Shown here: positions 8,115 to 32,053 of the stretch, piece by piece
Layout of the letters: each line of letters starts with the position of its first letter
Position numbering within the stretch: the stretch's first letter is position 1
DNA from: Ilumatobacteraceae bacterium
GTDB taxonomy: Bacteria > Actinomycetota > Acidimicrobiia > Acidimicrobiales > Ilumatobacteraceae
Assembly (NCBI GenBank): GCA_024644465.1
Contig: JAHEKY010000021.1
Coordinates: 1 to 37,629, forward strand
Direction of reading: 5' to 3'
Length of the DNA stretch: 37,629 bases
The notes under the pieces: generated by a model
What the model was told of the DNA's origin: nothing
The model's input: the letters and a program-made list of their open reading frames with translations, nothing else
Databases searched by the model: none
Program-made: the position numbers and the translations under genes

Positions 8115-8155
8115 CGGTGAGATCTGGGTGGCAGGGGTCCTCTCACCTCTCACCG
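8115..8155 (+). repeat. 41-bp palindromic intergenic repeat, locus 1 copy a
   Basis: The ends CGGTGAGA and TCTCACCG are inverted repeats; the core contains CTGGGTGG and GGTCCTCTCACC. It is about 90% identical, in opposite orientation, to the two copies near 32 kb. It lies between convergent genes and may fold as a terminator. Confidence 0.85.
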
Positions 8156-8176
8156 GAGGGTGGCCGAACGTGGCTG

Positions 8177-8217
8177 CGGTGAGAGTTGGGTGGGAGGGGT
8201 CCTCTCACCTCTCACCG
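8177..8217 (+). repeat. 41-bp palindromic intergenic repeat, locus 1 copy b
   Basis: Second copy, 62 bp after the first and in the same orientation. Its right arm overlaps the last six bases of the dienelactone hydrolase gene and supplies that gene's TGA stop codon. Confidence 0.85.
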
Positions 8218-8949
8218 GAGGGTGCGTTCGAAGAGGGAGATCGTCTTGTCCCAGCTGGTGTCGGAGGCGACCTGATGGTACGACGGAGCACCGGGCCACG
8301 TGTAGCCGTGGTCGGCGCCGGGGAAGGTCTCCAGTTCGACGTGGTCGACTGACGCGATCGCGTCGAAGAACCGCTGGTGCATCGCGATCGACTGCACCTG
8401 GTCGGCCTCACCGATGCCGATGTACAGGGGCGACGCGATGTCACCGGCGGAGAGGTGCGGGGAGTTCGGGGTGTCGTCGGCGAGGAACGACGGGTGCCAC
8501 ATCGCGCCGGCGGCGATTCGGTGGGGCAGCCGGACCATCGCCCGGGCGACCGCCTTCGCGCCCATGCAGAAGCCGATCACGCCGACCCTCGTGTCCTCCC
8601 CGACGCCGACGGCGGCGAGTGCGTCGTCGAAGTCCTGCTGGATCCCCTCGTCGGTGACCGAACGCAGCCACCCCATCATCATGGGGCCGTACGTGTCCCG
8701 GTCGGCGGCCATCTGCTCCGGCTCGACACCGAGCAGACGGCCCTGGCGGTGGTACAGGTCGGGTGTGATCACCCGGTAGCCGGCGCCGGCGAGCTTGCGC
8801 ATGAACTCGTGCGTCGCCGTGCGGATGCCGGGACCGTCGTGGAAGATGACGACGGTCGGCCGGTCACCGCCCTCGGCGGGTTGCTTGACGAGCACGGCCA
8901 TCTCGCCGTCGCTCGTCGCTGCGTCGATGATTTCCTCGCTGAGGTCCAT
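8212..8949 (-). CDS. Dienelactone hydrolase family protein
   Basis: A 245-residue alpha/beta hydrolase of the dienelactone hydrolase family. The Cys nucleophile elbow is GFCMGA, the acidic residue is in GEADQV and the catalytic His in GADHGYTWPG, so the triad is complete. Family members hydrolyse dienelactones or other small esters; the exact substrate is not readable from sequence. It follows a glutamine synthetase by 27 nt on the same strand. It also carries its own -10-like TAGATT 6 nt before the ATG, so it may be expressed both from the operon and independently as a leaderless transcript. The 3' end lies inside a palindromic repeat. Confidence 0.9.
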   Translation of the reverse strand: MDLSEEIIDAATSDGEMAVLVKQPAEGGDRPTVVIFHDGPGIRTATHEFMRKLAGAGYRVITPDLYHRQGRLLGVEPEQMAADRDTYGPMMMGWLRSVTDEGIQQDFDDALAAVGVGEDTRVGVIGFCMGAKAVARAMVRLPHRIAAGAMWHPSFLADDTPNSPHLSAGDIASPLYIGIGEADQVQSIAMHQRFFDAIASVDHVELETFPGADHGYTWPGAPSYHQVASDTSWDKTISLFERTLR

Positions 8950-8961
8950 CTCCGGAATCTA
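8950..8961 (-). promoter_or_regulatory. Leaderless-type -10 element of the dienelactone hydrolase gene
   Basis: TAGATT (8961 to 8956, minus strand) ends 6 nt before the ATG. A GGAG also adjoins the ATG but is too close for normal Shine-Dalgarno use. Confidence 0.45.
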
Positions 8962-8976
8962 CGACGCCGCGACGGA

Positions 8977-10320
8977 TCAGATCCGCTCGAAGTAGCGGCG
9001 GTGCTCCCAGTCGGTGACGGCGGCGTCGTACGCGGCGCACTCCGATTCGAAGAAGTGGGCGTAGTGATCGACGACGTCGTCGCCGAGCAGCCGCCGGGCG
9101 TCGCCGCTGGCGGCGAACTCGGCGTTCGCTCCTGCGAGCGTCGCCGGGAGCGGTGGGACGCCCGTCGCGTACCCGTCGCCGACGTGCTCGGCCGGCGGCT
9201 CGATCTCGTTGCGGATGCCGTCGAGCCCGCTCGCGATCGCCGCGGCGAACGCGAGATACGGGTTCGTGTCCGCGCCGGGCAGGCGGCACTCGATGCGCAG
9301 GTTCTGGCCGTCGCCGACGATCCGAAAGCCGGTCGTGCGGTTGTCGTGCGACCAGGCCAGCCCGGTCGGCGCCCACGACTGGTGTCGGTAGCGCTTGTAG
9401 CTGTTGATCGTGGGCGCGTACAGCGGCATCAGGTGTGGCACGTGGTGCATCCACCCGCCGAGGAACCACCGGAACACGTCGGTCGGCTCGCCCCCGCCGT
9501 CGACGAACGCGCTTCCACCCTCGCGCCACAGACTGACGTGGAGGTGACAACTGCTGCCGGGTTGCGCGGCGTCCGGCTTGGCCATGAACGAGACGCTGAT
9601 TCCCCGGGCGTCGGCGAGTTCCTTCATCGCCTCCTTCATCACGGCGTGACGATCCGCCATGTCGAGCACCTCGGCGTACCGGATGTTGAGCTCGTGCTGC
9701 CCGACGGCGGCTTCGCCCTTCGAGCTCTCGACCGGGATCTCGGAGCGGTTGAGCATCCGCCGCGCCTCGCCGACGTAGTCCTCGACGCGCGCGCCCTGGA
9801 ACAGGTGGTAGTCCTCGACGTACCATCCGGCGGACTCGAGGGCGCGGTATCCCTTCTCGTGTGCGGCGCGGTAGCTGTCGCGGTAGATGAAGAACTCGAG
9901 TTCGCTCGCACCCATCGCCGTGAAGCCTGCTTCGCCGGCGGTGGCGAGCTGTGCGGCCAGGATCGACCGTGGCGCGATCGTGATGGCGTCGTGGGTCGAG
10001 TTGTCGTGGGCGTCGCACATCACGATCGCGGTTCGGTCGGTCCATCCGCACCGCCGGATCGTGGTGACGTCGGGAACCATGTGGAAGTCCCCGTAGCCGC
10101 GCTGCCAGTTCGCGTACGCGTACCCCTCGACCGGTTCCATGTCCATGTCGACCGTGAACAGGTAGTCGCACGCATGGGTGCCGTCGGCGAGCGCGTGGTC
10201 GAGGAAGAACCGCCCGTCGAGCCGCTTTCCCATCAGCCGGCCGAAGTGGTCGGGGAAGGCGAGGACGACGGTGTCGATCGTGCCGTCGTCGACCTCCGCC
10301 CGCAGTTCGTCGGGCGACAT
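8977..10320 (-). CDS. Glutamine synthetase family protein (non-canonical, gamma-glutamyl amide ligase-like)
   Basis: A 447-residue GlnA/PuuA-family enzyme. Metal-ligand motifs ELEFF (Glu140, Glu142) and GQHELNIRY are present, with the MAKPDAAQPGSSCHLHVSL block and the substrate-arginine region RIECRLPGADTNPYLAFAAAI. The KP...H block departs from the KP...GNGSGMH form of housekeeping glutamine synthetase, and there is no adenylylation-loop signature. The better guess is therefore a ligase joining glutamate to an amine such as a polyamine or ethanolamine, as in PuuA or GlnA2-4 proteins. Its ATG directly follows the TAG of the alkyl sulfatase gene (zero gap), showing tight operon coupling. Confidence 0.88.
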   Translation of the reverse strand: MSPDELRAEVDDGTIDTVVLAFPDHFGRLMGKRLDGRFFLDHALADGTHACDYLFTVDMDMEPVEGYAYANWQRGYGDFHMVPDVTTIRRCGWTDRTAIVMCDAHDNSTHDAITIAPRSILAAQLATAGEAGFTAMGASELEFFIYRDSYRAAHEKGYRALESAGWYVEDYHLFQGARVEDYVGEARRMLNRSEIPVESSKGEAAVGQHELNIRYAEVLDMADRHAVMKEAMKELADARGISVSFMAKPDAAQPGSSCHLHVSLWREGGSAFVDGGGEPTDVFRWFLGGWMHHVPHLMPLYAPTINSYKRYRHQSWAPTGLAWSHDNRTTGFRIVGDGQNLRIECRLPGADTNPYLAFAAAIASGLDGIRNEIEPPAEHVGDGYATGVPPLPATLAGANAEFAASGDARRLLGDDVVDHYAHFFESECAAYDAAVTDWEHRRYFERI

Positions 10321-12213
10321 CTACGGCTCGACGATCGCGAAGTTGCTCTCGAACACATCCAGATTGCCGAAGATCGCGAGCAGTGCCGCCGGGTCACCGT
10401 CGAGCGTGACCTCACCGGCGCCGGCCGCGTCCGCGAACGTCGTCTCGTTCCCGAGGAGCCGACCGAGCACGTCCTTCGTCAGCGTCAGCGTCACCGCGGC
10501 GTCAGGGTCGTGGCGCCCGCTGATGTGGTGCAGCGCCTGGTTCTCCAGCGTCAGCACCCACCGCTCGTCGACGTCGGTGAAGTGCCAGTTGGTCACCACG
10601 TGTTCACCGGCGACGTCCTCGGACCGGAGCCGGACTGCGATCGCGTCGAAGATCATGTCGATCGTCAGCGCCGAGATGAACCTCCCGCCCTGGCCGCGAC
10701 GGCGCGGGGGCGTCCCGTTGCGCAGCTCCTGCGCGCCCATCAGGAACGCGTTGCGCCATGTCGCCGACTCCGCCTGGTAGCCGAGCTGTTCGAGCGCATC
10801 GGCCTGGAGGTCGCGGGCCGCCGCGTTCTCCGGGTCGGCGAACACGAGGTGGTTGACGACCTCGGCAACCCAGCGGTAGTCGCCGTCGTCGAACTTGTGC
10901 CGGGCGTGTTCGAGGAGCGCATCCGCGCCGCCGGCCAGCTCGACATAACGCTGCCCGGCGTCGGCCGGCGGCCGCGCCCAGAGGCGTGCCGGGTTGCCGT
11001 CGTACCAGCCGAGGTACCGCTGGTAGACGGCCTTGGCGTTGTGCACGAGCGCGCCGTAGTAGCCGCGGGTGTGGATCTGGTCGGTGAACGCGGCGGGCAG
11101 GGTGAGCTGCTCCGCGATCTCGTTCGGCGTGAGGCCGTGGTTGGCGAAGCGCATGGTCTGGTCGTGCATCCAGCGGTACAGGTCGCGCTGCTTGCGCAGG
11201 AACGTGTCGACGTCGCCGCGGCCCCACTGCGGCCAATGGTGGCTGGCGAACATCAGCTCCGCCGACGCGCCGAACAGCTCGATCGCCTCGTTGATGTACT
11301 TCGACCAGCCGAGCGAATCGCGCGCCTGCGCGCCGCGCAGCGGCAGCAGGTTGTGCATGTTGTGCGAACAGTTCTCCGCCATGCACAACCAGCCGCGGTC
11401 GGGGAAGAAGAAGTTCATCTCCGCGGGCGCCTCGGCCTCGGGGGTGAGCTGGAACACGATGCGGATCCCGTCGACGACCAACTCCTGGCCGGTCTCGGTG
11501 ATCTCCTCGGTCGGTGCGATCAACCCGGCCTGGGCCATCGGGACGGCCTTGCCGAGCCCGCAGTCGACGTGCTGGCGCGGCCCCGCGGGCAGCAACGGAC
11601 CGAACTGGTAGTGCGCCCGCCGCAGCATCGCCGGCCCTGCGATCACGTTCTCGAAGACCGCCTCACGGAGGAAGTGCTCGGGGGCGATGATCCGCACGTC
11701 GCCCGCGGCGACCGCCTCGTCGGTCGTCACGCCGCGCACGCCGCCGAAGTGGTCCGCATGGCTGTGCGTGTAGATCACAGCACGGACGGGTCGCTCGCCG
11801 AGTTCGGCGTTGGCGAGGTCGAGGCACGCCCTCGCACACACCTCGCTCGTCAGCGGGTCGATGATCACCCAGCCGGTGTCGCCCGCGAGGAAGCTGATGT
11901 TCGAGATGTCGTACCCGCGGGCCTGCCACAGGCCCGGCGCCACCTCGAACAGGCCGTGGATCGCGTTCAACCGCGCCTGGTGCCACAGGCTGGGGTTGAC
12001 CGAATCGGGCGCGTCGACGGAGTCGCGCACGAAGTCGTGGCGCGACACGTCCCACACCGTGTGGCCACGATCCTCGATCGAGCCGGTGGCGTGCGTCGTG
12101 ATCAGCCCACGACTGGCCCGGTCGGTGTCCGCGGCGTCGGCGACGAAGGACCGTCCCGCGTCGGCGAGCAGGGCCCGCGTGTGCTCGGTGGGTGGCTTCG
12201 GCGACGCGGACAT
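10321..12213 (-). CDS. Alkyl sulfatase (SdsA1-like, MBL fold with SCP2-like C-terminus)
   Basis: This 630-residue protein matches the SdsA1/type III alkyl sulfatase plan. The N-terminal MBL domain has YTHSHADHFGG (His150, His152, Asp154, His155) and the second metal segment ENCSHNMHNLLPLRGAQARD. A helical dimerisation domain with LFASHHWPQWG-type sequence follows, then a C-terminal SCP2-like domain (about 510-630) that binds the alkyl chain. The family cleaves alkyl sulfates such as SDS to alcohol and sulfate. No signal peptide is evident, whereas several relatives are exported, so it is probably cytosolic. A CACAAT hexamer 6 nt before the ATG indicates a leaderless transcript. It heads the operon with the glutamine-synthetase-like and dienelactone hydrolase genes. 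Confidence 0.92.
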   Translation of the reverse strand: MSASPKPPTEHTRALLADAGRSFVADAADTDRASRGLITTHATGSIEDRGHTVWDVSRHDFVRDSVDAPDSVNPSLWHQARLNAIHGLFEVAPGLWQARGYDISNISFLAGDTGWVIIDPLTSEVCARACLDLANAELGERPVRAVIYTHSHADHFGGVRGVTTDEAVAAGDVRIIAPEHFLREAVFENVIAGPAMLRRAHYQFGPLLPAGPRQHVDCGLGKAVPMAQAGLIAPTEEITETGQELVVDGIRIVFQLTPEAEAPAEMNFFFPDRGWLCMAENCSHNMHNLLPLRGAQARDSLGWSKYINEAIELFGASAELMFASHHWPQWGRGDVDTFLRKQRDLYRWMHDQTMRFANHGLTPNEIAEQLTLPAAFTDQIHTRGYYGALVHNAKAVYQRYLGWYDGNPARLWARPPADAGQRYVELAGGADALLEHARHKFDDGDYRWVAEVVNHLVFADPENAAARDLQADALEQLGYQAESATWRNAFLMGAQELRNGTPPRRRGQGGRFISALTIDMIFDAIAVRLRSEDVAGEHVVTNWHFTDVDERWVLTLENQALHHISGRHDPDAAVTLTLTKDVLGRLLGNETTFADAAGAGEVTLDGDPAALLAIFGNLDVFESNFAIVEP

Positions 12214-12225
12214 CTGTGCATTGTG
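12214..12225 (-). promoter_or_regulatory. Leaderless-type -10 element of the alkyl sulfatase gene
   Basis: CACAAT (12225 to 12220, minus strand) is 6 nt before the ATG, with no Shine-Dalgarno sequence. It lies directly downstream of a terminator-like hairpin that ends the previous gene. Confidence 0.45.
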
Positions 12226-12252
12226 ACAGTTCCCGTCGGCCGGTTCGCCAGC

Positions 12253-12276
12253 CGGCGGCCGCCCTCGCGGCCGCCG
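12253..12276 (-). terminator. GC-rich hairpin after the Gfo/Idh/MocA gene
   Basis: CGGCGGCCG and CGGCCGCCG form a perfect 9-bp stem around a 6-nt loop. It begins 2 nt past the stop codon of the dehydrogenase gene and separates it from the alkyl sulfatase promoter. No U-tract is present. Confidence 0.6.
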
Positions 12277-12278
12277 CG

Positions 12279-13451
12279 TCAGACCGCGGTCCAGGCGCCG
12301 CCGTTCGCATTCGACGTGATCGTGGCATCGACGAACGCAACGCCGCGCACGCCGTCGGCAGCGGTTGGGAAGTGCAGTGCGAGCGGGTCGGCGGCGCGGC
12401 CTGCCCGCCGAGCAGCGATCGCCTCGGCCGCGTCCGAGTAGACGGTCGCGAATCCCTCGTGGAATCCTTCCGGGTGACCCGCGACGATCCGGCTGGCGCG
12501 TGCGGAGAGCGGCAGCGTGCCCGGCCCGTTCGGCGTCCGCATCTCGGCGGGTGCGTCGATCGGTTTGAACAGCAGTTGCGTCGGGACCTCCTGCATCCAT
12601 TCGAGCGTCCCGCGGGTTCCGGACACGCGGAGGCGGAGGCAGTTCTCGACGCCGGCCGCGGCCTGGGTGACCCAGAACGAACCTCGCGCGCCGTTGTCGA
12701 AACGCAGCAGCGCACCGGCGAAGTCGTCGACCAGCCGGTTCGGCACGATGTGACCCACCTCGGCCGCCACCTCGGACACTTCGAGCCCCGTCACGAAGCG
12801 GACCAGGTTGTGGGCGTGGGTACCGATGTCTCCCATCACCAGCGACGGCCCGCCGCGCACCGGGTCGTATCTCCACGGCAGCGGGCCGTCGGCATCGGGA
12901 TCGTCTTCGGCCGCCTTGCCACCCTGCACGTACTCGATCTGCACGAGTCGAATCGTTCCGAGCTGTCCGTCCTGCACCATCGCCCGCGCCTGGCGAACCA
13001 TTGGGTACCCGGTGTAGTTGTGGGTCAGGCAGAACACGCGGCCGGTGGACTCGACGGCGGCCAGCACCTCCGACGCCTCGGCGAGCGTGTTCGCGAGCGG
13101 CTTGTCACAGATCACGTCGAAGCCGCACGTGAGCGCCGCGACCGCGTAGGCGTGATGGCTGTCGTTCGGCGTCATGATCGCCACGACATCGGCGCCGTCG
13201 GGGCGGTCGGCTTCTGCGTCGAGCAACTCGCTGGCGTCACCGTACGCCCGGCCCGGCTCGATGCCCAACGAGGTGGCTGCCCTTCGGGAACGCTCCGGAT
13301 CAGACGACAGCGCGCCGGCGATGATCTCGTAGCGGTCGTCGAGGCGCGCCGCGGTCCGGTGCATCGCACCGATGAAGCTGCCCGGGCCGCCCCCGATCAC
13401 CGCGAGACGGAGCCTCCGGCCCAGCATGTCGATGATCGGGTTCGAATCCAT
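12279..13451 (-). CDS. Gfo/Idh/MocA family oxidoreductase
   Basis: A 390-residue NAD(P)-dependent dehydrogenase. The N-terminal Rossmann fold starts with LRLAVIGGGPGSFIGAMHR. The conserved CDKPLANTLAEA carries the family Lys of the (E/C)KP motif. The C-terminal substrate domain includes GPSLVMGDIGTHAHNLVRFVTG with the expected Asp/His pair. The family acts on sugars, inositols and related polyols; the WRYDPVRGGPSLVMGDIGTH block resembles inositol/hexose dehydrogenases. The start at 13451 is chosen because homology begins there and a -10-like TACAGT lies upstream. The 60-bp gap to the divergent UPF0303 gene holds promoters in both directions. A hairpin follows the stop codon, so it is probably monocistronic. 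Confidence 0.9.
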   Translation of the reverse strand: MDSNPIIDMLGRRLRLAVIGGGPGSFIGAMHRTAARLDDRYEIIAGALSSDPERSRRAATSLGIEPGRAYGDASELLDAEADRPDGADVVAIMTPNDSHHAYAVAALTCGFDVICDKPLANTLAEASEVLAAVESTGRVFCLTHNYTGYPMVRQARAMVQDGQLGTIRLVQIEYVQGGKAAEDDPDADGPLPWRYDPVRGGPSLVMGDIGTHAHNLVRFVTGLEVSEVAAEVGHIVPNRLVDDFAGALLRFDNGARGSFWVTQAAAGVENCLRLRVSGTRGTLEWMQEVPTQLLFKPIDAPAEMRTPNGPGTLPLSARASRIVAGHPEGFHEGFATVYSDAAEAIAARRAGRAADPLALHFPTAADGVRGVAFVDATITSNANGGAWTAV

Positions 13452-13483
13452 GCGGCGCTCCAGACGGCTCGGCGGTGCCGGCG

Positions 13484-13489
13484 ACTGTA
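13484..13489 (-). promoter_or_regulatory. Predicted -10 of the Gfo/Idh/MocA gene
   Basis: TACAGT on the minus strand lies about 33 nt before the ATG, leaving a short leader with a GGAG. It is the minus half of a compact divergent promoter. Confidence 0.4.
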
Positions 13490-13499
13490 CCGCCGTCGG

Positions 13500-13511
13500 T
13501 ACCGTGAGGCG
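13500..13511 (+). promoter_or_regulatory. Leaderless-type -10 element of the UPF0303 gene
   Basis: TACCGT (TAnnnT) ends 6 nt before the ATG at 13512. No Shine-Dalgarno sequence is seen. Confidence 0.55.
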
Positions 13512-13997
13512 ATGACGACTGATCTCGACCGCATCGACGAGCAGCAGCGGCGCCTCCGGCTGCCGGGGTTCGACGAGGACGCCGCATGGCGCCTCGGCAG
13601 CGACCTGCGCCGTCGCGCCAGCGAGATGGACGCGGCCGTCACGATCGAGATCCGGCTCGGTGGCGAGACCGTGTTCCTGCATGCGATGCGGGGTACCTCG
13701 CCGGCGAACGCCGACTGGGCTCGCCGGAAACGCAACGTCGTCGAGATGCTCCAGGAGCCGTCGTACGCCGTCGGCCTGGCAGCGAAGCGCGACGGCGAGT
13801 CCGTGCTCGACCTGATGGGTCTGTCCCCTCGCGACGTGGCGGCGCACGGTGGGAGCTTCCCGGTCGTCGTGGACGGTGTCGGCTGCGTCGGCGTGGTGAC
13901 GGTGTCGGGGCTTCCGCAGCGCGCCGATCACGATCTCGTCGTCGAAGCCCTCGCCGACCTCTGCGGGGTCGACGCGGAAGATGTTCGGCTCGGCTGA
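13512..13997 (+). CDS. UPF0303 / heme-degrading-domain protein
   Basis: A 161-residue protein of the UPF0303 family (fold related to GlcG/HbpS). Supporting stretches are AWRLGSDLRRRASEMDAAVTIEIRLGG, the NADWARRKRNVV block, which is diagnostic for the family, and AAHGGSFPVVVDGVGCVGVVTVSGLPQRADHDLVVEAL at the C-terminus. Relatives have been linked to heme binding or small-molecule sensing, but no enzymatic reaction can be assigned. It is divergent from the Gfo/Idh/MocA oxidoreductase gene with 60 bp between start codons, which suggests a functional link (family members often sit beside sugar or glycolate metabolism genes). Transcript is probably leaderless. Confidence 0.85.
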   Translation: MTTDLDRIDEQQRRLRLPGFDEDAAWRLGSDLRRRASEMDAAVTIEIRLGGETVFLHAMRGTSPANADWARRKRNVVEMLQEPSYAVGLAAKRDGESVLDLMGLSPRDVAAHGGSFPVVVDGVGCVGVVTVSGLPQRADHDLVVEALADLCGVDAEDVRLG

Positions 13998-19922: not shown

Positions 19923-22196
19923 TCAGGCGTTGTCCTGGCAGAACTGGGTCTCGGCGACGTCGCCCGTGCAGATCTCCTCGATCGTGCGGAAGCCGTCGGC
20001 GATGACCGTGTCGAGGATGTTGTCGGCGGTGACCGCGATCGGTACGAGTGCGATGTACGGCACGCCACCGGACGCATCCGGTGTCGGCTTGCCGTCACCG
20101 TCGATGCCGATGATCGAGAAATCACCACTGAGCGACGTGACGTCTTCACCCGCCCGGAGTGCGAGCGCGACCTGCGCGCCGACGGCGGCTTCGGCGGCGA
20201 TCGGCTTGTAGACCGTCATTGCCTGCTTGCCCAACAGGATGTTCTGGATCCCGGCGGTCGTCGCGTCCTGACCACTGACCGGAATCGTCGACGGATCCAA
20301 CCCTGCCCGCTCGATCGCCCCGATCACCGAGTTCGCGATCCCGTCGTTGGCTGCGAACCAACCGTTCACGTTGTTCTCGGCACCAACCAGGATCTGGTCG
20401 GCGATCGTCGCTGCCTCGGCATTGTCCCAACCCGGCGTGAACTGATCAGCAACCAGTTCCCAACTGCCATCGGCAACCCGCTCCTCGACCGTCGCGTTGT
20501 ATCCATCGCGGAACAAGAAGGCATTGTTGTCCTCCTCACCACCGTTCTGCATCACAACCCGCGCCGGCGACGCACCCGTCGCATCGATCAGCGGTTCGAG
20601 TACCGACGCCATCGTCGCACCGACCTGAACATTGTCGAAGCTGACATAGGCCGCACCACCGGCGCTGCCCTCGGTGTTGAACCGGTCGTACTCCACGACC
20701 TGCACACCGGCCTCGGTCGCGAGATCGATGATCGTGGCACCCGAACCGGAATCGTTCGACGTCAACACGATCACCGACGCACCATCACCGATCGCCTGCT
20801 CGGCCTGGGAGATCTGCGTCGCCGCGTCACCCTCGGCATTCACGATGCTGAAATCGGAACCCTCCGACAGACCAGCATCCTCGAACGCCTCCTTGAAGAA
20901 CCGACGATCATCCTTCTCCCAACGATCCGACGTCGCCGAATCCGGCAACAACACCCAGATCGAACCGGCATCAGCCGAGGTGTCACCACCACCGCCGCCA
21001 CCGGCGTTCTCGACACAGAACTGGGTCTCGGCGACGTCGCCCGTGCAGATCTCCTCGATCGTGCGGAAGCCGTCGGCGATGACCGTGTCGAGGATGTTGT
21101 CGGCGGTGACCGCGATCGGTACGAGTGCGATGTACGGCACGCCACCGGACGCATCCGGTGTCGGCTTGCCGTCACCGTCGATGCCGATGATCGAGAAATC
21201 ACCACTGAGCGACGTGACGTCTTCACCCGCCCGGAGTGCGAGCGCGACCTGCGCGCCGACGGCGGCTTCGGCGGCGATCGGCTTGTAGACCGTCATTGCC
21301 TGCTTGCCCAACAGGATGTTCTGGATCCCGGCGGTCGTCGCGTCCTGACCACTGACCGGAATCGTCGACGGATCCAACCCTGCCCGCTCGATCGCCCCGA
21401 TCACCGAGTTCGCGATCCCGTCGTTGGCTGCGAACCAACCGTTCACGTTGTTCTCGGCACCAACCAGGATCTGGTCGGCGATCGTCGCTGCCTCGGCATT
21501 GTCCCAACCCGGCGTGAACTGATCAGCAACCAGTTCCCAACTGCCATCGGCAACCCGCTCCTCGACCGTCGCGTTGTATCCATCGCGGAACAAGAAGGCA
21601 TTGTTGTCCTCCTCACCACCGTTCTGCATCACAACCCGCGCCGGCGACGCACCCGTCGCATCGATCAGCGGTTCGAGTACCGACGCCATCGTCGCACCGA
21701 CCTGAACATTGTCGAAGCTGACATAGGCCGCACCACCGGCGCTGCCCTCGGTGTTGAACCGGTCGTACTCCACGACCTGCACACCGGCCTCGGTCGCGAG
21801 ATCGATGATCGTGGCACCCGAACCGGAATCGTTCGACGTCAACACGATCACCGACGCACCATCACCGATCGCCTGCTCGGCCTGGGAGATCTGCGTCGCC
21901 GCGTCACCCTCGGCATTCACGATGCTGAAATCGGAACCCTCCGACAGACCAGCATCCTCGAACGCCTCCTTGAAGAACCGACGATCATCCTTCTCCCAAC
22001 GATCCGACGTCGCCGAATCCGGCAACAACACCCAGATACTGCCTTCACCCGCAGCATCGCCGCCACCAGTGTCCGGCTCGGTGGCCGGTGGTGCCCCGGT
22101 GTCGGTCGAACCGCCGTCGTCGTCGCTGCCGCACGCGGACGCGATCAACGCAAGAGCGGCGAGCCCGACGATCAATGATCGCCCTCGCTTGTGCAT
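19923..22196 (-). CDS. xylF: Xylose-type substrate-binding lipoprotein with duplicated ligand domain
   Basis: A 757-residue protein, about twice normal length. A signal peptide with lipobox (IASAC, lipid Cys22) and an acidic Gly/Thr linker lead to two complete periplasmic-binding-protein domains, about residues 54-393 and 413-752. The two are identical in sequence and joined by a Gly-rich linker. Each shows XylF/ChvE-type landmarks: SDRWEKDDRRFFKEAFEDAG, VEYDRFNT, YVSFDNVQVG, DNNAFLFRDGY, SGQDATTAGIQ and MTVYKPI. It would deliver xylose or a related sugar to the downstream XylGH-like permease. The duplication comes from an apparently perfect 1022-bp direct repeat, so it is very recent, under gene conversion, or an assembly artefact. 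GGGGGAG before the ATG and a clear promoter with a LacI/cre-type operator lie upstream. Confidence 0.92.
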   Translation of the reverse strand: MHKRGRSLIVGLAALALIASACGSDDDGGSTDTGAPPATEPDTGGGDAAGEGSIWVLLPDSATSDRWEKDDRRFFKEAFEDAGLSEGSDFSIVNAEGDAATQISQAEQAIGDGASVIVLTSNDSGSGATIIDLATEAGVQVVEYDRFNTEGSAGGAAYVSFDNVQVGATMASVLEPLIDATGASPARVVMQNGGEEDNNAFLFRDGYNATVEERVADGSWELVADQFTPGWDNAEAATIADQILVGAENNVNGWFAANDGIANSVIGAIERAGLDPSTIPVSGQDATTAGIQNILLGKQAMTVYKPIAAEAAVGAQVALALRAGEDVTSLSGDFSIIGIDGDGKPTPDASGGVPYIALVPIAVTADNILDTVIADGFRTIEEICTGDVAETQFCVENAGGGGGGDTSADAGSIWVLLPDSATSDRWEKDDRRFFKEAFEDAGLSEGSDFSIVNAEGDAATQISQAEQAIGDGASVIVLTSNDSGSGATIIDLATEAGVQVVEYDRFNTEGSAGGAAYVSFDNVQVGATMASVLEPLIDATGASPARVVMQNGGEEDNNAFLFRDGYNATVEERVADGSWELVADQFTPGWDNAEAATIADQILVGAENNVNGWFAANDGIANSVIGAIERAGLDPSTIPVSGQDATTAGIQNILLGKQAMTVYKPIAAEAAVGAQVALALRAGEDVTSLSGDFSIIGIDGDGKPTPDASGGVPYIALVPIAVTADNILDTVIADGFRTIEEICTGDVAETQFCQDNA
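19939..20960 (-). repeat. 1022-bp direct repeat, copy 2 (C-terminal binding domain)
   Basis: I found no difference from 21016-22037 by reading; offset is 1077 bp. Identity ends abruptly at both borders: at 20960 toward the linker and at 19939 just before the stop codon. Confidence 0.9.
21016..22037 (-). repeat. 1022-bp direct repeat, copy 1 (N-terminal binding domain)
   Basis: Counterpart of 19939-20960 in the same orientation and reading frame. The 55-bp segment between the copies encodes the Gly-rich linker. Confidence 0.9.
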
Positions 22197-26499: not shown

Positions 26500-26505
26500 A
26501 CGGTA
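26500..26505 (-). promoter_or_regulatory. Predicted -10 of the amidohydrolase-tnaA unit
   Basis: TACCGT on the minus strand, leaving a leader of roughly 28 nt with a GAAAGAAAGCGAG purine-rich ribosome site before the ATG at 26465. Confidence 0.4.
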
Positions 26506-26551
26506 CGTCACGCGCCCGGGCCGACCGTCCGGCGCGTCGAACGCCCACTGA

Positions 26552-26557
26552 TACCGT
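26552..26557 (+). promoter_or_regulatory. Predicted -10 of the alpha/beta hydrolase gene
   Basis: TACCGT with a leader of about 45 nt ending in GAGGAGGT, a strong ribosome site 4 nt before the ATG at 26608. It is the plus half of a divergent promoter region. Confidence 0.4.
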
Positions 26558-26607
26558 CGCGTGACTGCCCACCGCGCAGTCGACTCCTTCATTCTCGAGG
26601 AGGTCTG

Positions 26608-27465
26608 ATGGATGACGCGTTGACACTTCCCGACGGGCGATCGCTCGGCTGGGCCGTGTACGGCGACCCTGCAGGACGGCCGCTGGTCGCACTCCACGGG
26701 TCGCCGGACTCGCGCATCATCTGGCGTCTCGCCGACGACGCAGCCGCACGACTCGGCATCCGTGTGATCGCGCCAGACCGGCCGGGGTTCGGATTGAGCG
26801 ACCCCCATCCGCGGCGCACCGTGCTCGACTGGGTCGACGACCAGGACGCGCTCGCCGCCCACCTCGGCCTCGGCGGCTACCCGATCATCGCAGTTTCCGG
26901 CGGCAGCCCGTACGCAACCGCATTCGCCTGGGCACGCCCCGACACGGTGACCCGGCTCGGCCTGTTCTCGGTGATCGCCCCGCTGCACGAGCCGGGCGTA
27001 CTCGCCGGGACGAACCGGCAGGTCGGCCTGACATTCCGGTTGGCGCGGCGGGCGCCGTTCGTGCTGGGTCCGATCGCGAGGCTGATCGTGCGGTCGGCGT
27101 CGCGCAACCCGGCGGCGGTCGAGCGACGTCTCATCCGGACCCGGCCGCCGGCCGACCGTGAGGTGATCGAACGGACCGAGGTTCTCGCGATCCTGCGCGA
27201 GAACCTACCGAACCAGTTCCGGCATGCGCCGACGATCGCCCGCGAGATGCGGCTCGCCGCGCGCGACTGGGGATTTCCGCTGAGCGAGATCGACGTGCGC
27301 ACGACGATCTGGCAGGGCGGGCTGGACGACGTCCACTCGCCGGCGATGGCGCGCCACCTGGCCACGGTGATTCCCGGCGCCGACCTCGTGTACGAACCCG
27401 GCTACGCCACGTTCAACTGGATCGACCGGATCGACGAGATGCTGGGCACGCTCGTCGACGGGTGA
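26608..27465 (+). CDS. Alpha/beta hydrolase, possibly lacking the catalytic histidine
   Basis: A 285-residue alpha/beta hydrolase. The oxyanion region LHGSPDSR, the DRPGFGLSD turn and a nucleophile elbow AVSGGSP (Ser97) are clear, and the acidic residue is probably in WQGGLDDVHSP. Where the family normally has a GH pair near the C-terminus, this protein reads EPGYATFNW (Tyr266, Thr268), so the general base seems to be missing. It may be inactive, use another residue, or carry a recent point change. It has a very good ribosome site, is divergent from the amidohydrolase gene and ends at a strong hairpin facing a convergent membrane-protein gene. Confidence 0.85.
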   Translation: MDDALTLPDGRSLGWAVYGDPAGRPLVALHGSPDSRIIWRLADDAAARLGIRVIAPDRPGFGLSDPHPRRTVLDWVDDQDALAAHLGLGGYPIIAVSGGSPYATAFAWARPDTVTRLGLFSVIAPLHEPGVLAGTNRQVGLTFRLARRAPFVLGPIARLIVRSASRNPAAVERRLIRTRPPADREVIERTEVLAILRENLPNQFRHAPTIAREMRLAARDWGFPLSEIDVRTTIWQGGLDDVHSPAMARHLATVIPGADLVYEPGYATFNWIDRIDEMLGTLVDG

Positions 27466-27482
27466 ACGGACGCGCGAGGGGC

Positions 27483-27510
27483 CGGCGTCGTGCTCTCGGT
27501 CACGACGCCG
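27483..27510. terminator. Bidirectional hairpin terminator
   Basis: CGGCGTCGTG and CACGACGCCG form a perfect 10-bp stem with an 8-nt loop; flanking GGGG and CCCC can extend it. It lies between convergent genes. Confidence 0.7.
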
Positions 27511-27541
27511 ACCCCGACCTGCGGCCCGGGGCGCACCGCCG

Positions 27542-28228
27542 TCAGGCGGCGGCCTCCATGTGCCGCCGTTCCTCCACGGCGGACAGCGCGGGTCGCCGGC
27601 GATCGGCGAGCAGCCCCGCCGCGGCGAGCGCGACGAGGACGACGCCCGGGATCACGAAGAACCACGTGAACAACCGGAAGTCGGGCAAGCTCGCGACCTT
27701 GTCGTAGTTGCCCCGCTCGGCCTGCATCGTCGTCACCAGCGGCTCGTAGTGGTCGAGCCCGGCCGGCACCCGTTCGAAGATCCCGACGTTGCTGTCCATC
27801 AGCCCGAGCAGACCGCTGAAGTCGGACTGCATCTGGTCGAGGCCCTGCAGCATCTGCGTCATCGCAGGGAACTGCTGGCCCATGAACGCCTCGACGTCGG
27901 ACTCGGGCATCTGCATCGCCTGCGCGAGCGCGGGAACCATGTTGCCCGCGTCGACGCCGAGGGCCGTGAAGCCCGCGAGATAGCCGTTGAACTTGTCGAT
28001 GTTCTCCTGGGTCATCGCCGGAACGACATCGCCGAGCGGCACGAAGACGTCGTAGTAGTACGTCGCCGTCGTGTCGACGTTGGTCTCCTCCATGATCGGC
28101 GCGAAGGCGTCGATCATCTTCTGGCCACCGTCGGCCTTGTCGGGCAGCCCCATCGCGAACGGAGCGACGATCAACATCGCCCCGACGACGAGGACAGCCC
28201 ACAACACCTTGCGAATCATGACCTTCAC
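27542..28228 (-). CDS. Two-TM membrane protein of unknown function
   Basis: I do not recognise this family. The 228-residue protein has an N-terminal hydrophobic segment (about 6-27), an outer domain of about 155 residues rich in Met, Asp and Gln (several MxQM-type stretches and predicted helices), a second transmembrane helix (about 188-208, FTWFFVIPGVVLVALAAAGLLA) and a short basic/acidic tail inside. There are no cysteines and no recognisable catalytic residues. The GTG at 28228 has GGAG at 5 nt; an in-frame ATG at 28219 is an alternative start. It is divergent from the sulfur/redox operon with 212 bp between, so it might share regulatory sites there. Confidence 0.72.
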   Translation of the reverse strand: MKVMIRKVLWAVLVVGAMLIVAPFAMGLPDKADGGQKMIDAFAPIMEETNVDTTATYYYDVFVPLGDVVPAMTQENIDKFNGYLAGFTALGVDAGNMVPALAQAMQMPESDVEAFMGQQFPAMTQMLQGLDQMQSDFSGLLGLMDSNVGIFERVPAGLDHYEPLVTTMQAERGNYDKVASLPDFRLFTWFFVIPGVVLVALAAAGLLADRRRPALSAVEERRHMEAAA

Positions 28229-28354
28229 TTCCTCTCCGGCCGCGGGTGTCGCAGCCGCCTACTCACCAACGTGCACCTCGTGCTCTTCATGCGGAATGGG
28301 CCTTCGTCACAATCTGCAGAACGCGGTATGAGCGGCGGTCGTGGCGCAGAGATC

Positions 28355-28368
28355 GGGACCTTGGTCCC
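28355..28368. promoter_or_regulatory. 14-bp perfect palindrome upstream of the sulfur/redox operon
   Basis: GGGACC and GGTCCC around TT. The GGGAC...GTCCC frame resembles DevR/DosR-type (NarL/LuxR family) hypoxia and redox boxes in actinobacteria. It overlaps the likely -35 of the operon promoter. The regulator identity is inference. Confidence 0.5.
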
Positions 28369-28440
28369 TGTGCGCGTCGCAGGATCAGGCGCATGCTGCA
28401 GGAAGAGGCACGAAGCCGCACAACGAGACACGAGACCGAG

Positions 28441-29202
28441 ATGCCCACCTTCCTCACCACCAAAGACGTCCAGGACCTGATCAACGTCGATCGGTCGACC
28501 GTCTACCGCATGGCCGAGGACGGCCGGTTGCCCGGGGTCAAGGTCGGCCGCCAGTGGCGCTTCCCCGCCAACCGGCTCGCCGCGCAACTCGGCCTCGACG
28601 CGCCGCCCACCGCGAGCGGCGAACCGGCGCCGCCCGAACCCGAGTTCCAGTTGGGCGAGCTGCTCGAACCCGACGGGTTGCAGTCGATCATCGAGCTGCT
28701 CGGCGAGCTGATCGGGCTGATGGCGGTGGCGACCGACATGGACGGCCGGCCGCTCACCACGGTTGCCAACCGGTGCGGCTTCTACTCGGCGTTCGCAGAA
28801 CAGCCGGGTGCCGCCGAAGCGTGCCTCCAGGGGTGGCGCCAACTGGCCGAACAGCCGCACGTCGCCGCTCGCTTCGTCCCGACGCACCTCGGCTTCCTCT
28901 GCGCGCGCACCTTCGTCTGGGTCGACCGCCGTCCCGTCGGCATGCTCGTCGTCGGCGGGGTCACCCCCGATCGCTGGCCGCCCGACCCCGCATCGCTCGA
29001 GCAGATCGCCGACGAGGTGGGCGTGGCGGTGAGCACGCTGCACGACGCCGTCGCGCAGACCTACGACGTCGACCCGGACCGGCGTCGCTGGATCCTCCGA
29101 GAACTCCCGCAGTTCGGCGACCTCGTGTCGCGCCTCGCGACGGCACGACACCGGCTGCTCGCACACGACCATTCCAACCTCCCAGAACGGACCGCATCAT
29201 GA
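28441..29202 (+). CDS. Excisionase-type HTH regulator with PocR sensory domain
   Basis: A 253-residue regulator. Residues 3-48 are a MerR/excisionase-like helix-turn-helix (FLTTKDVQDLINVDRSTVYRMAEDGRLPGVKVGRQWRFP). Residues about 75-215 match the PocR ligand-binding domain: LQSIIELLGELIGLMAVATDMDGRPLT, a Cys in VANRCGFYSAF and a second pair in EACLQGW and GFLCARTFVWV, followed by VGMLVVGGVTPDRW. Three cysteines suggest redox or metal sensing. It is the first gene of a five-gene operon, overlaps the SQR-like gene by 4 nt (ATGA) and probably controls it. An in-frame ATG at 28393 with a CAGGAT -10-like hexamer 7 nt upstream would add 16 residues as a leaderless start; 28441 is preferred because homology begins there. 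Confidence 0.82.
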   Translation: MPTFLTTKDVQDLINVDRSTVYRMAEDGRLPGVKVGRQWRFPANRLAAQLGLDAPPTASGEPAPPEPEFQLGELLEPDGLQSIIELLGELIGLMAVATDMDGRPLTTVANRCGFYSAFAEQPGAAEACLQGWRQLAEQPHVAARFVPTHLGFLCARTFVWVDRRPVGMLVVGGVTPDRWPPDPASLEQIADEVGVAVSTLHDAVAQTYDVDPDRRRWILRELPQFGDLVSRLATARHRLLAHDHSNLPERTAS

Positions 29203-30443
29203 AACGCCTCCTCGTCCTCGGCGCCGGCACGGCCGGCACGATGGCGGTGAACAAGCTCCGCCCGCTGCTCCCCGGCGACGAGTGGCAGATCACCGTCGTC
29301 GACTCGAAGCCCGAGCACCACTACCAGCCCGGCTACCTCTTCATCCCGTTCGGTACGTATCAGCCCGCCGAGGTCGTCAAGCCGTCGGCGCCGCTGTTGA
29401 CCGACGGCGTCGAACTCCTCATCGGTGACGTCGACGTCGTCGAGGCCGCCGATTCCCTGGTGCGGCTGACCGATGGCACCGAACTCCCCTACGACCAGCT
29501 GATCATCGCCACCGGTACGCACCCCCGCCGCGACCAGACCGAGGGTCTGGACAGCGACGAGTACGGGCGCACGATCCACGACTTCTACACGCTCGAGGGC
29601 GCGACCGCGCTCGCCGGCGTGCTCGCCGACTGGCCGGGCGGTCGGCTGGTGATGAACATCGCCGAGATGCCGATCAAGTGCCCCGTCGCGCCACTGGAGT
29701 TCATGTTCCTCGCCGACTCGTTCTTCACCGACCGGGGCATGCGCGACAAGGTAGAGCTCGTCTACGTGACGCCGCTCGATGGCGCGTTCACGAAGCCGGT
29801 CGCGGCGAAGCATCTCGGCACGATGCTCGCGACTCGCGACATCGCGTTGGAAACCGACTTCATGGTGATGGAGGTCGACGGCGACGCGAGGAAGATCGTC
29901 AGCTACGACGAACGCGAGGTGCCGTACGACCTGCTCGTCACCGTCCCGGTCAACATGGGCGCGGACTTCGTCGAGCGGTCCGGTCTCGGCGACGAACTGA
30001 ACCACGTCGAAGTCGACAAGTTCACATTCCTGTCCGACGACCACGACAACATCTTCGCCCTCGGCGACGCCGCGAACCTCCCGACGTCGAAGGCCGGCTC
30101 GGTCGCCCACTTCGCCGTCGACGTGTTCATCGACAACTTCATGCAGCACATCGCCGGCCGCCCGATGACCCACCGGTTCGACGGCCATGCCAACTGCTTC
30201 ATCGAGTCCGGTGCGGGCAAGGGCCTGCTGATCGACTTCAACTACGACGTCGAGCCGCTCCCCGGCAAGTACCCGCTTCCCGGCATCGGCCCGTTCTCGC
30301 TGCTGAAGGAGACCGAAGCGAACCACTGGGGCAAGTTGATGTTCAAGTGGACGTACTGGAACATGCTGCTGCCCGGCCGTGACCTGCCGCTCCCCGCGGA
30401 CATGACGATGGCCGGCAAGATCAGAGAGGAGGTGCCGGCATGA
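29199..30443 (+). CDS. Sulfide:quinone oxidoreductase-like FAD protein
   Basis: A 414-residue flavoprotein of the SQR/FCSD group. The FAD motif is LVLGAGTAGTMA at the N-terminus, the second FAD segment is NIFALGDAANLP, and ATGTHP closes the first Rossmann half. The redox cysteines are Cys161 (IKCPVAP) and Cys333 (ANCFIES), the two essential positions of SQR-type enzymes; the third cysteine of some classes is absent. The C-terminal WGKLMFKWTYWNMLLPGR is an amphipathic membrane-binding tail. It probably oxidises sulfide or a persulfide and passes electrons to quinone at the inner membrane face. Coupled by 4-nt overlaps to the regulator and the DUF1641 gene, with DsrC- and DsrE-like sulfur carriers following. 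Confidence 0.88.
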   Translation: MKRLLVLGAGTAGTMAVNKLRPLLPGDEWQITVVDSKPEHHYQPGYLFIPFGTYQPAEVVKPSAPLLTDGVELLIGDVDVVEAADSLVRLTDGTELPYDQLIIATGTHPRRDQTEGLDSDEYGRTIHDFYTLEGATALAGVLADWPGGRLVMNIAEMPIKCPVAPLEFMFLADSFFTDRGMRDKVELVYVTPLDGAFTKPVAAKHLGTMLATRDIALETDFMVMEVDGDARKIVSYDEREVPYDLLVTVPVNMGADFVERSGLGDELNHVEVDKFTFLSDDHDNIFALGDAANLPTSKAGSVAHFAVDVFIDNFMQHIAGRPMTHRFDGHANCFIESGAGKGLLIDFNYDVEPLPGKYPLPGIGPFSLLKETEANHWGKLMFKWTYWNMLLPGRDLPLPADMTMAGKIREEVPA

Positions 30444-31039
30444 CCGTCACCGAGACGACCAGCGGGGTCGCCGTGTCCGTCGATCGGATGGCGATGCTCG
30501 AAGCGAAGATCGATCTGCTCACCGAGCGGATCACCGTGCTGACCGACGACGCCGAACATCGTGCCCGTCAGCGGGCGATGTTCGACGAGTTCACCGCCGA
30601 CGTGTCCCGGATCTCCGGCGACGCACTGGACCTCGTGACCGAACGGCTGGCCGAGGCCGAGCGCAAGGGCTACTTCACCGTCGCGAAAGCCGGTGCCCGA
30701 GTCGCCGATCGGGTCGTCACGTCGCTCGACGAGGACGACCTCGACCAGCTCGGTGACAACGTCGTGGCGATCCTCGACACCGTCCGCGAGATCACCCAGC
30801 CCGAGCTGCTGACGCTGCTCGGCCGGATGGTCGGCGCGGTGCGTGCCGAACAGGAGCGCGTCGACAACGAGCACGGCGATGCCCCGGGCTTCTGGGCGCT
30901 CGCCAAGGAACTGCGGGACCCCGACGTCCGACGCGGCATGGCGCGAGCGCTGCACACGCTGCGCACCGTCTCGCTCCAGACCGGCCCCGCCGCAAGCACA
31001 ACCGACCCAACCGCACCCCCCGAAGGAGAACACTCATGA
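30440..31039 (+). CDS. DUF1641 protein
   Basis: A 199-residue DUF1641-family protein. The N-terminal third is helical and likely coiled (DRMAMLEAKIDLLTERITVLTDDAEHRARQRAMFDEF). The family core follows with ILDTVREITQPELLTLLGRMV and the signature RDPDVRRGMARALHTLRTVS near the end. It is soluble and without cysteines or metal motifs, so it is more likely a structural or regulatory partner than a redox enzyme. Members typically lie beside SQR-like or formate-dehydrogenase genes. Here it overlaps the SQR-like gene and the DsrC-like gene by 4 nt on each side, so equimolar production is likely. Confidence 0.88.
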   Translation: MTVTETTSGVAVSVDRMAMLEAKIDLLTERITVLTDDAEHRARQRAMFDEFTADVSRISGDALDLVTERLAEAERKGYFTVAKAGARVADRVVTSLDEDDLDQLGDNVVAILDTVREITQPELLTLLGRMVGAVRAEQERVDNEHGDAPGFWALAKELRDPDVRRGMARALHTLRTVSLQTGPAASTTDPTAPPEGEHS

Positions 31040-31353
31040 GCACGACCACGATTGCCAACCGCGAGGTCCACGTCAACGACGAGGGCTTCATGACCGAGTA
31101 CGACGAGTGGAGCGAGGAACTCGCCCCCCACCTCGCCGCCGCGATCGGCATCGCCGAGCTGACCGATGATCACTGGAAGGCGATCAGGTTCCTGCGCGAG
31201 GACTTCGTCGACCAGCAGGAGACGGCGACGCTGCGCCGGGTGACCAAGGTCGGGGGCATCCCCACCAAGCAGTTGTTCACGCTCTTCCCGAAGAAGCCGG
31301 CCAAGAAGATGGCGTATGTCGCCGGGTTGCCCAAGCCCCGCGGCTGCGTCTGA
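31036..31353 (+). CDS. DsrC/TusE-like sulfur carrier with a single C-terminal cysteine
   Basis: A 105-residue DsrC/TusE-family protein: DDEGFMTEYDEWSEELA-like N-terminus, LTDDHWKAIRFLREDF core, GIPTKQLFTLFPKKPAKKMAYVAGLPKPRGCV arm. The penultimate Cys104 (CysA) is present. The partner cysteine of true DsrC, 11 residues upstream, is Ala (Ala93), so it cannot form the intramolecular disulfide of dissimilatory DsrC. It should therefore act as a one-cysteine persulfide carrier, as in TusE-type relay. Coupled to DUF1641 by ATGA overlap. The natural partners are the SQR-like and DsrE2-like proteins on either side. Confidence 0.9.
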   Translation: MSTTTIANREVHVNDEGFMTEYDEWSEELAPHLAAAIGIAELTDDHWKAIRFLREDFVDQQETATLRRVTKVGGIPTKQLFTLFPKKPAKKMAYVAGLPKPRGCV

Positions 31354-31388
31354 CGACCGGCCAACCGACCGACCTGAAAGGAATCGCA

Positions 31389-31910
31389 ATGACCATCACC
31401 GACCATCCGTCCAAGGCGGCGGCGCTCGTCCCCGATTTCGGCGACGAGGAGACCGATCGCAAGATCTGCTTCATCTGCTCCAAGGGCACGCTCGACATGG
31501 CGTACCCCGCGTTGATCATGGCCAACGGCGCCCTCGGTGAGGGCATCGAGACGCACATCTTCTTCACGTTCTGGGGCATGGACATGATCTCCAAGAAGAC
31601 GCAGCACGACCTGAAGTTCACCATCCTCGGCAACCCCGCGACGCACATGCCGCAGGGTCTCGGCGGCATCCCCGGGATGACCGCGGTGGCCACGAAGATG
31701 ATGAAGAAGCAGATCGCCGATCTCGATGTTCCGGAGATCCCCGAGTTCCTCGAGATGCTCTCCGACATGGGCGCCCACCTGTGGGCGTGCAAGATGTCGG
31801 TCGACATGATGGACCTCGACGAGGACGACCTGATGGATCAGGTCGAAGACATCATCAACGTCAGCGAGTTCATCGAGCTGTCCGACGGCGCGCAGGTCAT
31901 CTTCGTCTGA
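31389..31910 (+). CDS. DsrE2-like (DsrE/DsrF/DrsH family) sulfurtransferase
   Basis: A 173-residue protein of the DsrE/DsrF/DrsH-like group. Cys27 and Cys30 are in KICFICSKGTLDMAYPALIMANGA, and LWACKMSVDMMDLDEDDLMD carries the conserved Cys134, the likely persulfide-bearing residue of DsrE2A-type proteins. The Met-rich middle (WGMDMISKK, MTAVATKMMKKQI) is typical. It would carry sulfane sulfur to or from the DsrC/TusE-like protein encoded 35 nt upstream. It has its own good ribosome site (AAAGGA). It is the last gene of the operon; its stop codon is directly followed by a C-tract and the paired palindromic repeats. Confidence 0.88.
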   Translation: MTITDHPSKAAALVPDFGDEETDRKICFICSKGTLDMAYPALIMANGALGEGIETHIFFTFWGMDMISKKTQHDLKFTILGNPATHMPQGLGGIPGMTAVATKMMKKQIADLDVPEIPEFLEMLSDMGAHLWACKMSVDMMDLDEDDLMDQVEDIINVSEFIELSDGAQVIFV

Positions 31911-31933
31911 CCCCCACCCCACCCCCACCCCCC
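31911..31933 (-). other. Potential G-quadruplex tract
   Basis: On the minus strand four G-runs (6, 5, 4, 5) are separated by single T loops, an ideal intramolecular quadruplex. It begins right after the dsrE2-like stop codon and precedes the 41-bp repeat pair. Confidence 0.7.
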
Positions 31934-31940
31934 GTTGTGC

Positions 31941-31991
31941 CGTTCCGGTGAGAGGTGAGAGGACCTGTCCCACCCAGATCTCACCGGAACG
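31941..31991 (-). repeat. Palindromic intergenic repeat, locus 2 copy a (41-bp core 31946-31986)
   Basis: The arms CGTTCCGGTGAGA and TCTCACCGGAACG are perfect 13-bp inverted repeats around the 25-nt centre of the same element as at 8115, in opposite orientation. Confidence 0.85.
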
Positions 31992-32002
31992 CGCCGGCCA
32001 CC

Positions 32003-32053
32003 CGTTCTGGTGAGAGGTGAGAGGACCTGTCCCACCCAGATCTCACCGGAACG
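32003..32053 (-). repeat. Palindromic intergenic repeat, locus 2 copy b (41-bp core 32008-32048)
   Basis: It differs from copy a in the core at only one base (C to T in the left arm). The period is 62 bp, the same as at locus 1. It ends 30 nt before the stop codon of the convergent oxidoreductase gene. Confidence 0.85.

Follow-up and report, generated by a model that had tools for sequence, protein, structure and literature searches.

Two pairs of short palindromic units lie in the 37,629-nucleotide stretch of an Ilumatobacteraceae bacterium analyzed here (GenBank assembly GCA_024644465.1, contig JAHEKY010000021.1, positions 1 to 37,629; hereafter the window), and the results of our analysis point to both being part of an undescribed family of dispersed, probably mobile repeats. 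On the basis of sequence comparison, we judge it somewhat better than an even chance (probability about 0.55) that such arrays are gene-less dispersed copies of a repeat family tied to a DNA-cutting protein, in which an AbiEi-type winged helix is combined with a Vsr-like nuclease (hereafter AbiEi-Vsr). The initial annotation of the window had described four copies of a 41-bp palindrome, which are found where it placed them; its core corresponds to the 39-bp core used here plus one C and one G.

8115–8155, minus strand: array 1, palindromic unit 1 (39-bp core 8116–8154)
8156–8176, no strand: array 1, spacer, of a sequence that differs freely between arrays
8177–8217, minus strand: array 1, palindromic unit 2 (core 8178–8216), which includes the stop codon of the dienelactone hydrolase gene
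31946–31986, plus strand: array 2, palindromic unit 1 (core 31947–31985)
31987–32007, no strand: array 2, spacer
32008–32048, plus strand: array 2, palindromic unit 2 (core 32009–32047)

The core starts with GGTGAGAGGTGAGAG and ends with TCTCACC, and the units have a period of 62 bp at both loci, the pair at 8.1 kb in minus and that at 31.9 kb in plus orientation. At the second locus the arms are longer through CGTTCC/GGAACG, with one mismatch in the second copy.

The genome to which the window belongs (handle G000, the window being its contig C70) is a draft of 3,371,927 bases in 195 contigs, 83% complete. The 39-nt pattern with up to three mismatches was found at 35 places in this genome and nowhere with the reversed pattern, while GGTGAGA-N25-TCTCACC was found at 77 places with up to two mismatches (one place for the reversed control) and at 69 with up to one. 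Since these counts far exceed those of the reversed controls, the four copies are not due to chance. Our census of the matches listed, based on the sequence retrieved around them and short of a few of the 77 places, comprises 68 units in 34 arrays: 27 double, two triple, one quadruple and four single. Adjacent units are spaced by 62 bp in 28 of 34 cases, in the same as well as in opposite orientation, the other spacings being 52 bp (one case), 72 bp (three, in one array) and 82 bp (two, in one array); the steps thus approximate one helical turn. Among the 64 asymmetric units the doubled arm GGTGAGAGGTGAGAG is near-invariant, all four letters occur at position 26 of the other arm, and the spacers share no common sequence. 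All arrays but one overlap genes by 12 bp or less, as judged with a simple gene caller; the exception (L036) overlaps by 67 bp a called gene whose start was perhaps called too early. The proposal of a dispersed paired module is therefore upheld: its copies far outnumber the four of the window, and related modules occur in other genera; the units are neither restricted to these four nor scattered through coding regions without fixed spacing. The annotation had also placed the pairs between convergent genes, which is true of both window loci and does not hold as a general rule, because the 34 arrays lie between convergent genes in 12 cases, tandem genes in 17 and divergent genes in five.

Adjacent units are inverted in 16 of the 34 pairs of G000. 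As a separate observation on these pairs, the central ACCTGT (or its reverse) runs in one direction through both units in 14 of the 16, with one opposite and one tie; this co-direction despite inverted arms was not seen by eye in the pairs of another genome, G588.

Comparison with related genomes indicates that the architecture of the arrays is more widespread than their sequence. Within the order (397 genomes), the heptamer pair with up to one mismatch occurs at the 69 places of G000 and at zero to five in each other genome, and the pair pattern with its period fixed at 62 bp, allowing two mismatches, occurs 28 times in G000, 10 times in G211 and once or twice in three others. A looser pattern (up to three mismatches), applied to the 221 genomes of the family, retrieved units with other heptamers in two genomes of the same genus (G498 and G500) and three of another genus (G585, G587 and G588), with 62-bp pairs in four of these five. 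A covariance model built from 27 pairs, with strict filters and at most 17 candidates scored per genome, recognized 12 of the 221 genomes at E ≤ 1e-4, belonging to six genera. The generic motif GRTGAG-N27-CTCAYC, required exactly and twice with a gap of 13 to 43, occurs in 11 of these 12 and never in reversed form, the exception being G585, which has single units only; the paired architecture with other stems is thus present in 10 family genomes besides G000. Among the matches listed, which exclude those of G518, G574, G587 and G588 and part of those of G516, spacings are 61–63 bp, together with 52 bp in G000 and G516 and 72 and 82 bp in G000. Adjacent units in the loci fetched from relatives are spaced by 61 (8 cases), 62 (55), 63, 52, 50 and 108 bp (one each), but these loci were largely picked by searches favoring 62 bp and the figures from G000 are the least biased. 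A search of virus contigs, limited to exact matches, retrieved none to the extended pair pattern. An exact 22-base pattern gave four single matches in unrelated genomes of a wider contig collection, which we took as chance.

The outer arms GRTGAG/CTCAYC remain constant, whereas the inner stems vary between genera and even within one genome, with at least three kinds in G500. Despite this variation, inner stems are self-complementary at 5.67 of nine positions, compared with 3.26 for arms mixed between genomes (standard deviation 0.13, maximum 3.58 in 500 trials), in a set of 200 units of which 68 derive from G000. Such complementarity fits either a hairpin fold or a protein site with two-fold symmetry, while the 10-bp spacing steps favor double-stranded DNA. 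This comparison between genomes is stronger evidence than the covariation within alignment A2, which by itself is weak: changes on both sides occupy 20 cells versus 7.5 after shuffling and the score is 0.147 versus 0.105, with fewer both-side-changed pairs (3 vs. 3.7) and fewer pair types (9 vs. 10.6) than in the shuffles.

When the genes beside arrays were compared across genomes, one kind of protein recurred, its gene lying between two arrays or units in G498, G500, G574 and G464. The protein has approximately 310 residues, an AbiEi-type winged helix being followed by a REase_MTES_1575/DUF559-like domain. Pfam searches with five proteins returned AbiEi_4 above cut-off in three and just below it in one, and AbiEi_3_N above cut-off in the fifth; the AbiEi models of PADLOC matched all three proteins submitted. 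An alignment of six sequences shows invariant columns reading S-H-x-E, D, E-x-D and H. The structure predicted from these six sequences (predicted local distance difference test score 88.4) was matched by Foldseek to Rv2827c and AbiEi (1zel and 6y8q) with E about 1e-5, and more weakly to AbaSI/PvuRTs1I, the catalytic domain of I-Bth0305I (3r3p; E 0.06, template modeling score 0.66 by target) and Vsr (E 0.7); these matches were assigned to parts of the protein from the Pfam positions. The suggestion of a protein-binding site is plausible, with the AbiEi-Vsr protein as its candidate ligand.

Only the fused gene is present between the arrays in the loci read, with no second gene there such as that of the AbiEii nucleotidyltransferase toxin. 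Genes lying between neighboring arrays or units at four other loci (L159, L106, L163 and L154) appear to be ordinary metabolic ones, as read from their translations without a family search, and were set aside as partners. Matches of the gene comparison below approximately 45% identity are, in our reading, mostly paralogues and partly the nuclease gene itself.

The six-sequence alignment, used as a query with at most 10 candidates scored per genome, retrieved homologues in 55 of the 221 family genomes at E ≤ 1e-40. Their scores fall into two clearly separated groups: above 380 bits are 15 genes from 11 genomes, and the next gene has 256. This close subfamily is present in 10 of the 12 array-positive genomes and in one of the other 209, and this sole exception (G517) carries three units next to its copy. 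The model had been built with six of the 15 genes; of the nine left for a later check, seven are flanked by repeats on either side, including two from sister genomes, and the arrays beside these further copies have spacings of 50–52 or 60–61 bp.

Repeats on both sides of the close gene: G518 C54, G504 C181, G464 C49 (single units), G498 C335, G000 C39, G588 and G587
Repeats on one side: G517 and G518 C80, the other side being near a contig end or masked
L184 (G000 C39), about 1360 and 2448–2670: second array type of G000, on both sides of the close AbiEi-Vsr gene

The gene of this last entry is the only close copy in G000, and its flanking units are of a GRTGACGATCA type (GATGACGATCA..., 38-bp units, 60–61 bp apart). 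A lower-scoring paralogue of G000, on contig C86 (172 bits), is flanked on either side by single palindromes of a further, distinct sequence.

Generality was examined on a larger set of genes. For 61 genes of this kind (30 from loci of the family search, 22 further ones and nine more), of which five had flanks that were too short, the 380 bp preceding the gene were compared by alignment with the 380 bp following it. The flanks are similar (p < 0.01) in 50 of the remaining 56, compared with one in 141 control genes reaching as high; five of the 56 are discovery genes, without which the count becomes 45 of 51, and the independent cases are fewer, as some genes are mutual orthologues. All 43 genes inside the family behave in this way, and 7 of the 13 outside it. 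When the units flanking a gene were compared with dispersed units, those of the same genome were the most similar in five of eight testable genomes, ranking second in two and fifth in one.

Several results weigh against the association of the arrays with this protein, or against its generality. At the level of the protein, the MTES_1575/DUF559 domain stays under the Pfam threshold (E 1e-6 to 0.007), and the partner is not named by any NCBIfam model. At the level of the window's own repeat type, we found no gene flanked by GGTGAGA units in the 83% complete assembly, with 10 of its 33 candidates scored; GGTGAGA arrays at the listed positions are always at least approximately 7 kb apart, and therefore no gene lies between two of them. 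The conservation of the arms is partly built in, the arms having been the search key for the units. No gene above 380 bits was found in G211, which has arrays, or in G585, which has single units (loci listed below). The flank test measures similarity and not palindromes, with controls from G000 only; a stricter test, requiring good palindromes on both sides, retained 22 of 56 genes versus 5 of 144 controls. Outside the family, 6 of 13 genes lack matching flanks, and the flanking repeats of distant members are unlike GRTGAG. Finally, neither a target-site duplication nor a cut site was found.

G211, loci L106, L115 and L156–L162: arrays, no close AbiEi-Vsr gene found
G585, loci L087, L107 and L116: single units, no close AbiEi-Vsr gene found

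Some of these data bear on another possibility, namely that the arrays are a DNA antidote that titrates or inactivates the resident nuclease, so that losing arrays, or gaining the nuclease without them, would be harmful and the system would be addictive. The AbiEi-type domain, the DNA sites that flank the gene and recur in numerous other places, and the lack of a second gene between arrays in the loci read would all suit such a system. We regard it as remote, because the close gene subfamily was found in 11 of the 221 family genomes, and because the G000 assembly and G211 retain arrays although no matching gene was found there.

Comparison of positions between species shows that arrays are gained or lost, and that their sequence differs where the position is shared. 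One locus has array-gene-array in G498 and a lone array in G504, with both flanks homologous and with units typical of each species. An array site of G000 has an array-free homologue in G517, in the form of a 12-bp intergenic gap. Two array positions are common to G000 and G500 (L056/L142 and L060/L084), with homologous flanks on both sides and different unit sequences, and one of the two positions differs further by an inversion of its first unit. A first comparison had yielded no G498 locus at the position of a G000 array and one array of a relative beside the same gene, on the same side, as in G000; a later one with more loci yielded several shared positions, and turnover is therefore partial.

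Shared positions with different unit sequences would also fit an operator network, in which the AbiEi-type protein, or one related to it, acts as a repressor of its own gene and as a repressor or insulator of many more, its nuclease being secondary and the arrays being kept by selection rather than by movement. According to PMC7319586, AbiEi and Rv2827c do bind inverted repeats at their own promoters, with gaps that differ by approximately 10 bp, and the spacing steps of about 10 bp seen here fit cooperative binding on one face of the DNA. We nevertheless consider such a network unlikely, since arrays are also found downstream of the partner gene, divergent gaps hold only five of the 34 arrays compared with 12 for convergent ones, and positions turn over between species.

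Returning to an AbiEi-Vsr protein associated with dispersed arrays, the following mechanism can be proposed from the sequences, its steps of binding, cutting and movement being inferred. The winged-helix part would bind GRTGAG half-sites; with two units approximately six helical turns apart, four half-sites would lie on one face of the DNA and both units could be bound together. The nuclease would then cut or nick at or near a unit, and repair from another array would copy the unit, sometimes together with the gene. In this way arrays would reach further intergenic positions, and the arms within a genome would stay similar with the spacers left to diverge; the nuclease would drive copying or conversion much as RAYT proteins are proposed to do for REPINs in PMC3116915. 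Known operators offer a partial parallel. In PMC7319586, AbiEi binds a pair of 23-bp inverted repeats separated by 3 bp and Rv2827c binds four of 23 bp with gaps of 13 and 4 bp; by our own addition the latter would give a period of 63 bp, whose nearness to 62 bp is suggestive and was noticed post hoc.

More tentatively, and with the odds on balance against it, the window's family of bacteria and probably the wider phylum may harbor a class of selfish DNA in which a solitary, array-flanked AbiEi-Vsr gene inserts itself by homing between genes and gives rise to arrays without a gene. Conversion driven by the nuclease would keep these arrays uniform, and they would be rewritten in place when a lineage's nuclease changes specificity. 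The flank test, which held for only 7 of 13 genes outside the family, lowers confidence in this proposal slightly. Rewriting in place, if true, would account for the shared array positions with different stems and a flipped unit. If the REPIN-like design does occur here with an unrelated nuclease, palindromic doublets of fixed spacing would mark a general way for DNA-processing proteins to seed their own sites, and proteins known to Pfam only by AbiEi and REase domains would gain a likely role together with a list of candidate binding sites.

The genes around the two window arrays are the following.

7339–8103, plus strand: BTAD-type transcriptional regulator gene, start codon uncertain, left of array 1
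8212–8949, minus strand: dienelactone hydrolase gene, right of array 1
31389–31910, plus strand: DsrE/DsrF-like gene, left of array 2
32084–35584, minus strand: gene with POR, TPP-enzyme and DUF6537 domains (2-oxoacid:ferredoxin oxidoreductase-like), right of array 2

A bidirectional terminator had also been suggested, and double hairpins at gene ends could terminate transcription or stabilize the 3'-ends of mRNA. The hairpins are stable: in single-unit folds of the four units on both strands, seven of eight were equalled by at most one in 200 shuffles (z from −1.8 to −6.0), the weakest (8108–8162, plus strand) having 12 of 200 shuffles as good. Convergent gaps are also somewhat enriched (12 of 34 arrays vs. 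19 of the 112 gaps in these stretches that exceed 60 bp; Fisher p 0.03). However, no T-tract site is present at either window locus, the two loci covered by that scan, and 22 of the 34 arrays are not convergent. Beside tandem genes the apex motif shows no strand bias (8 same, 8 opposite and 1 tie). Arrays also occur upstream of genes and around the nuclease gene, and neither a near-invariant sequence nor 10-bp steps are needed by a terminator, so that this role seems rather improbable; a bidirectional terminator of the intrinsic kind finds no support. A role at the RNA level was likewise set aside, given the lack of strand bias and an Rfam scan of the window that returned no family above gathering score. 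Elsewhere in the window, a 300-bp direct repeat is present at 19926–20225 and 21003–21302 (98% identical, 1077 bp apart), and several direct repeats of 56–101 bp, 71–88% alike with periods of 75 and 63–135 bp, lie at 6237–6487 and 6564–6928.

A literature search over titles and the openings of abstracts of the papers listed retrieved no description of such a system, which is weak evidence since most subscription journals were outside the search, and nothing joining DUF559 to flanking inverted repeats or Ilumatobacter to intergenic palindromes. Miniature inverted-repeat transposable elements are short, gene-less and present in many copies with inverted ends, and the arrays resemble them in these respects. 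The copies described here, in contrast, have no common inner sequence, no target-site duplication was found with them, and their partner is not a known transposase.

With the operators of AbiE toxin-antitoxin systems (AbiEi, Rv2827c) the arrays share paired inverted repeats, gaps differing by approximately one helical turn, a period similar to that of Rv2827c and an AbiEi-type DNA-binding domain, recognized by Pfam, PADLOC and Foldseek alike. They differ in that the nuclease is fused, the repeats are on both sides of the gene and dispersed in the genome, and no partner gene lies between arrays in the loci read. The likeness to I-Bth0305I concerns the predicted fold of the catalytic domain; the link to palindromic arrays and the AbiEi-type DNA-binding domain set the present protein apart, and the comparison of G498 with G504 bears on its putative homing.

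To our knowledge, dispersed palindromic doublets of bacteria are mainly those of REPINs with their RAYT transposase. The arrays have much in common with them: imperfect palindromic doublets, mostly intergenic, with spacers kept in length and not in sequence (30 of 34 arrays have at least two units, and 28 of 34 pairs are at 62 bp), species specificity, and a gene flanked by repeats. According to PMC3116915, mostly intergenic doublets with a fixed spacing and unconserved spacers are typical of REPINs, and one might suppose that the arrays are classical REP elements moved by an unrecognized RAYT, a transposase of the Y1 (HUH) type. G000 does contain one RAYT-like gene, approximately 4.6 kb from the nearest array on the same contig.

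L066 (G000 C125:6871–10194), gene at 1459–2286: RAYT-like Y1 gene, NCBIfam REP_Tyr_transpos below cut-off

This gene, the only one of its kind found in the 83% complete assembly, is flanked by a different palindrome, with no GGTGAGA unit in the 3.3 kb read, and the RAYT idea raised at first finds no support. Its CAAAGTTGTGTC/GACACAACTTTG palindromes, present on both sides, apparently form a separate repeat family of G000. Nor is there a GTAG-type tag beside the units, a tetranucleotide whose role in REP/RAYT systems is treated in PMC8266576: the 64 units read mostly Y-T-S-C 5' of the palindrome, with T in 62 and C in 63 at the two positions that vary least. Since arrays moreover flank a different class of gene, a hidden RAYT is highly improbable.

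Further differences from REPINs are the 62-bp spacing with its steps of approximately 10 bp and the proportion of inverted pairs, 16 of 34 in G000 versus 93% of REP doublets in PMC3116915. Above all, the partner here is an AbiEi winged helix with a Vsr-like nuclease and not a Y1 transposase. By analogy, the best reading of these likenesses and differences would be a REPIN family in which a homing-type nuclease replaces the transposase, which we adopt as the closest working model; a REPIN-like design thus appears here with a nuclease unrelated to RAYT.

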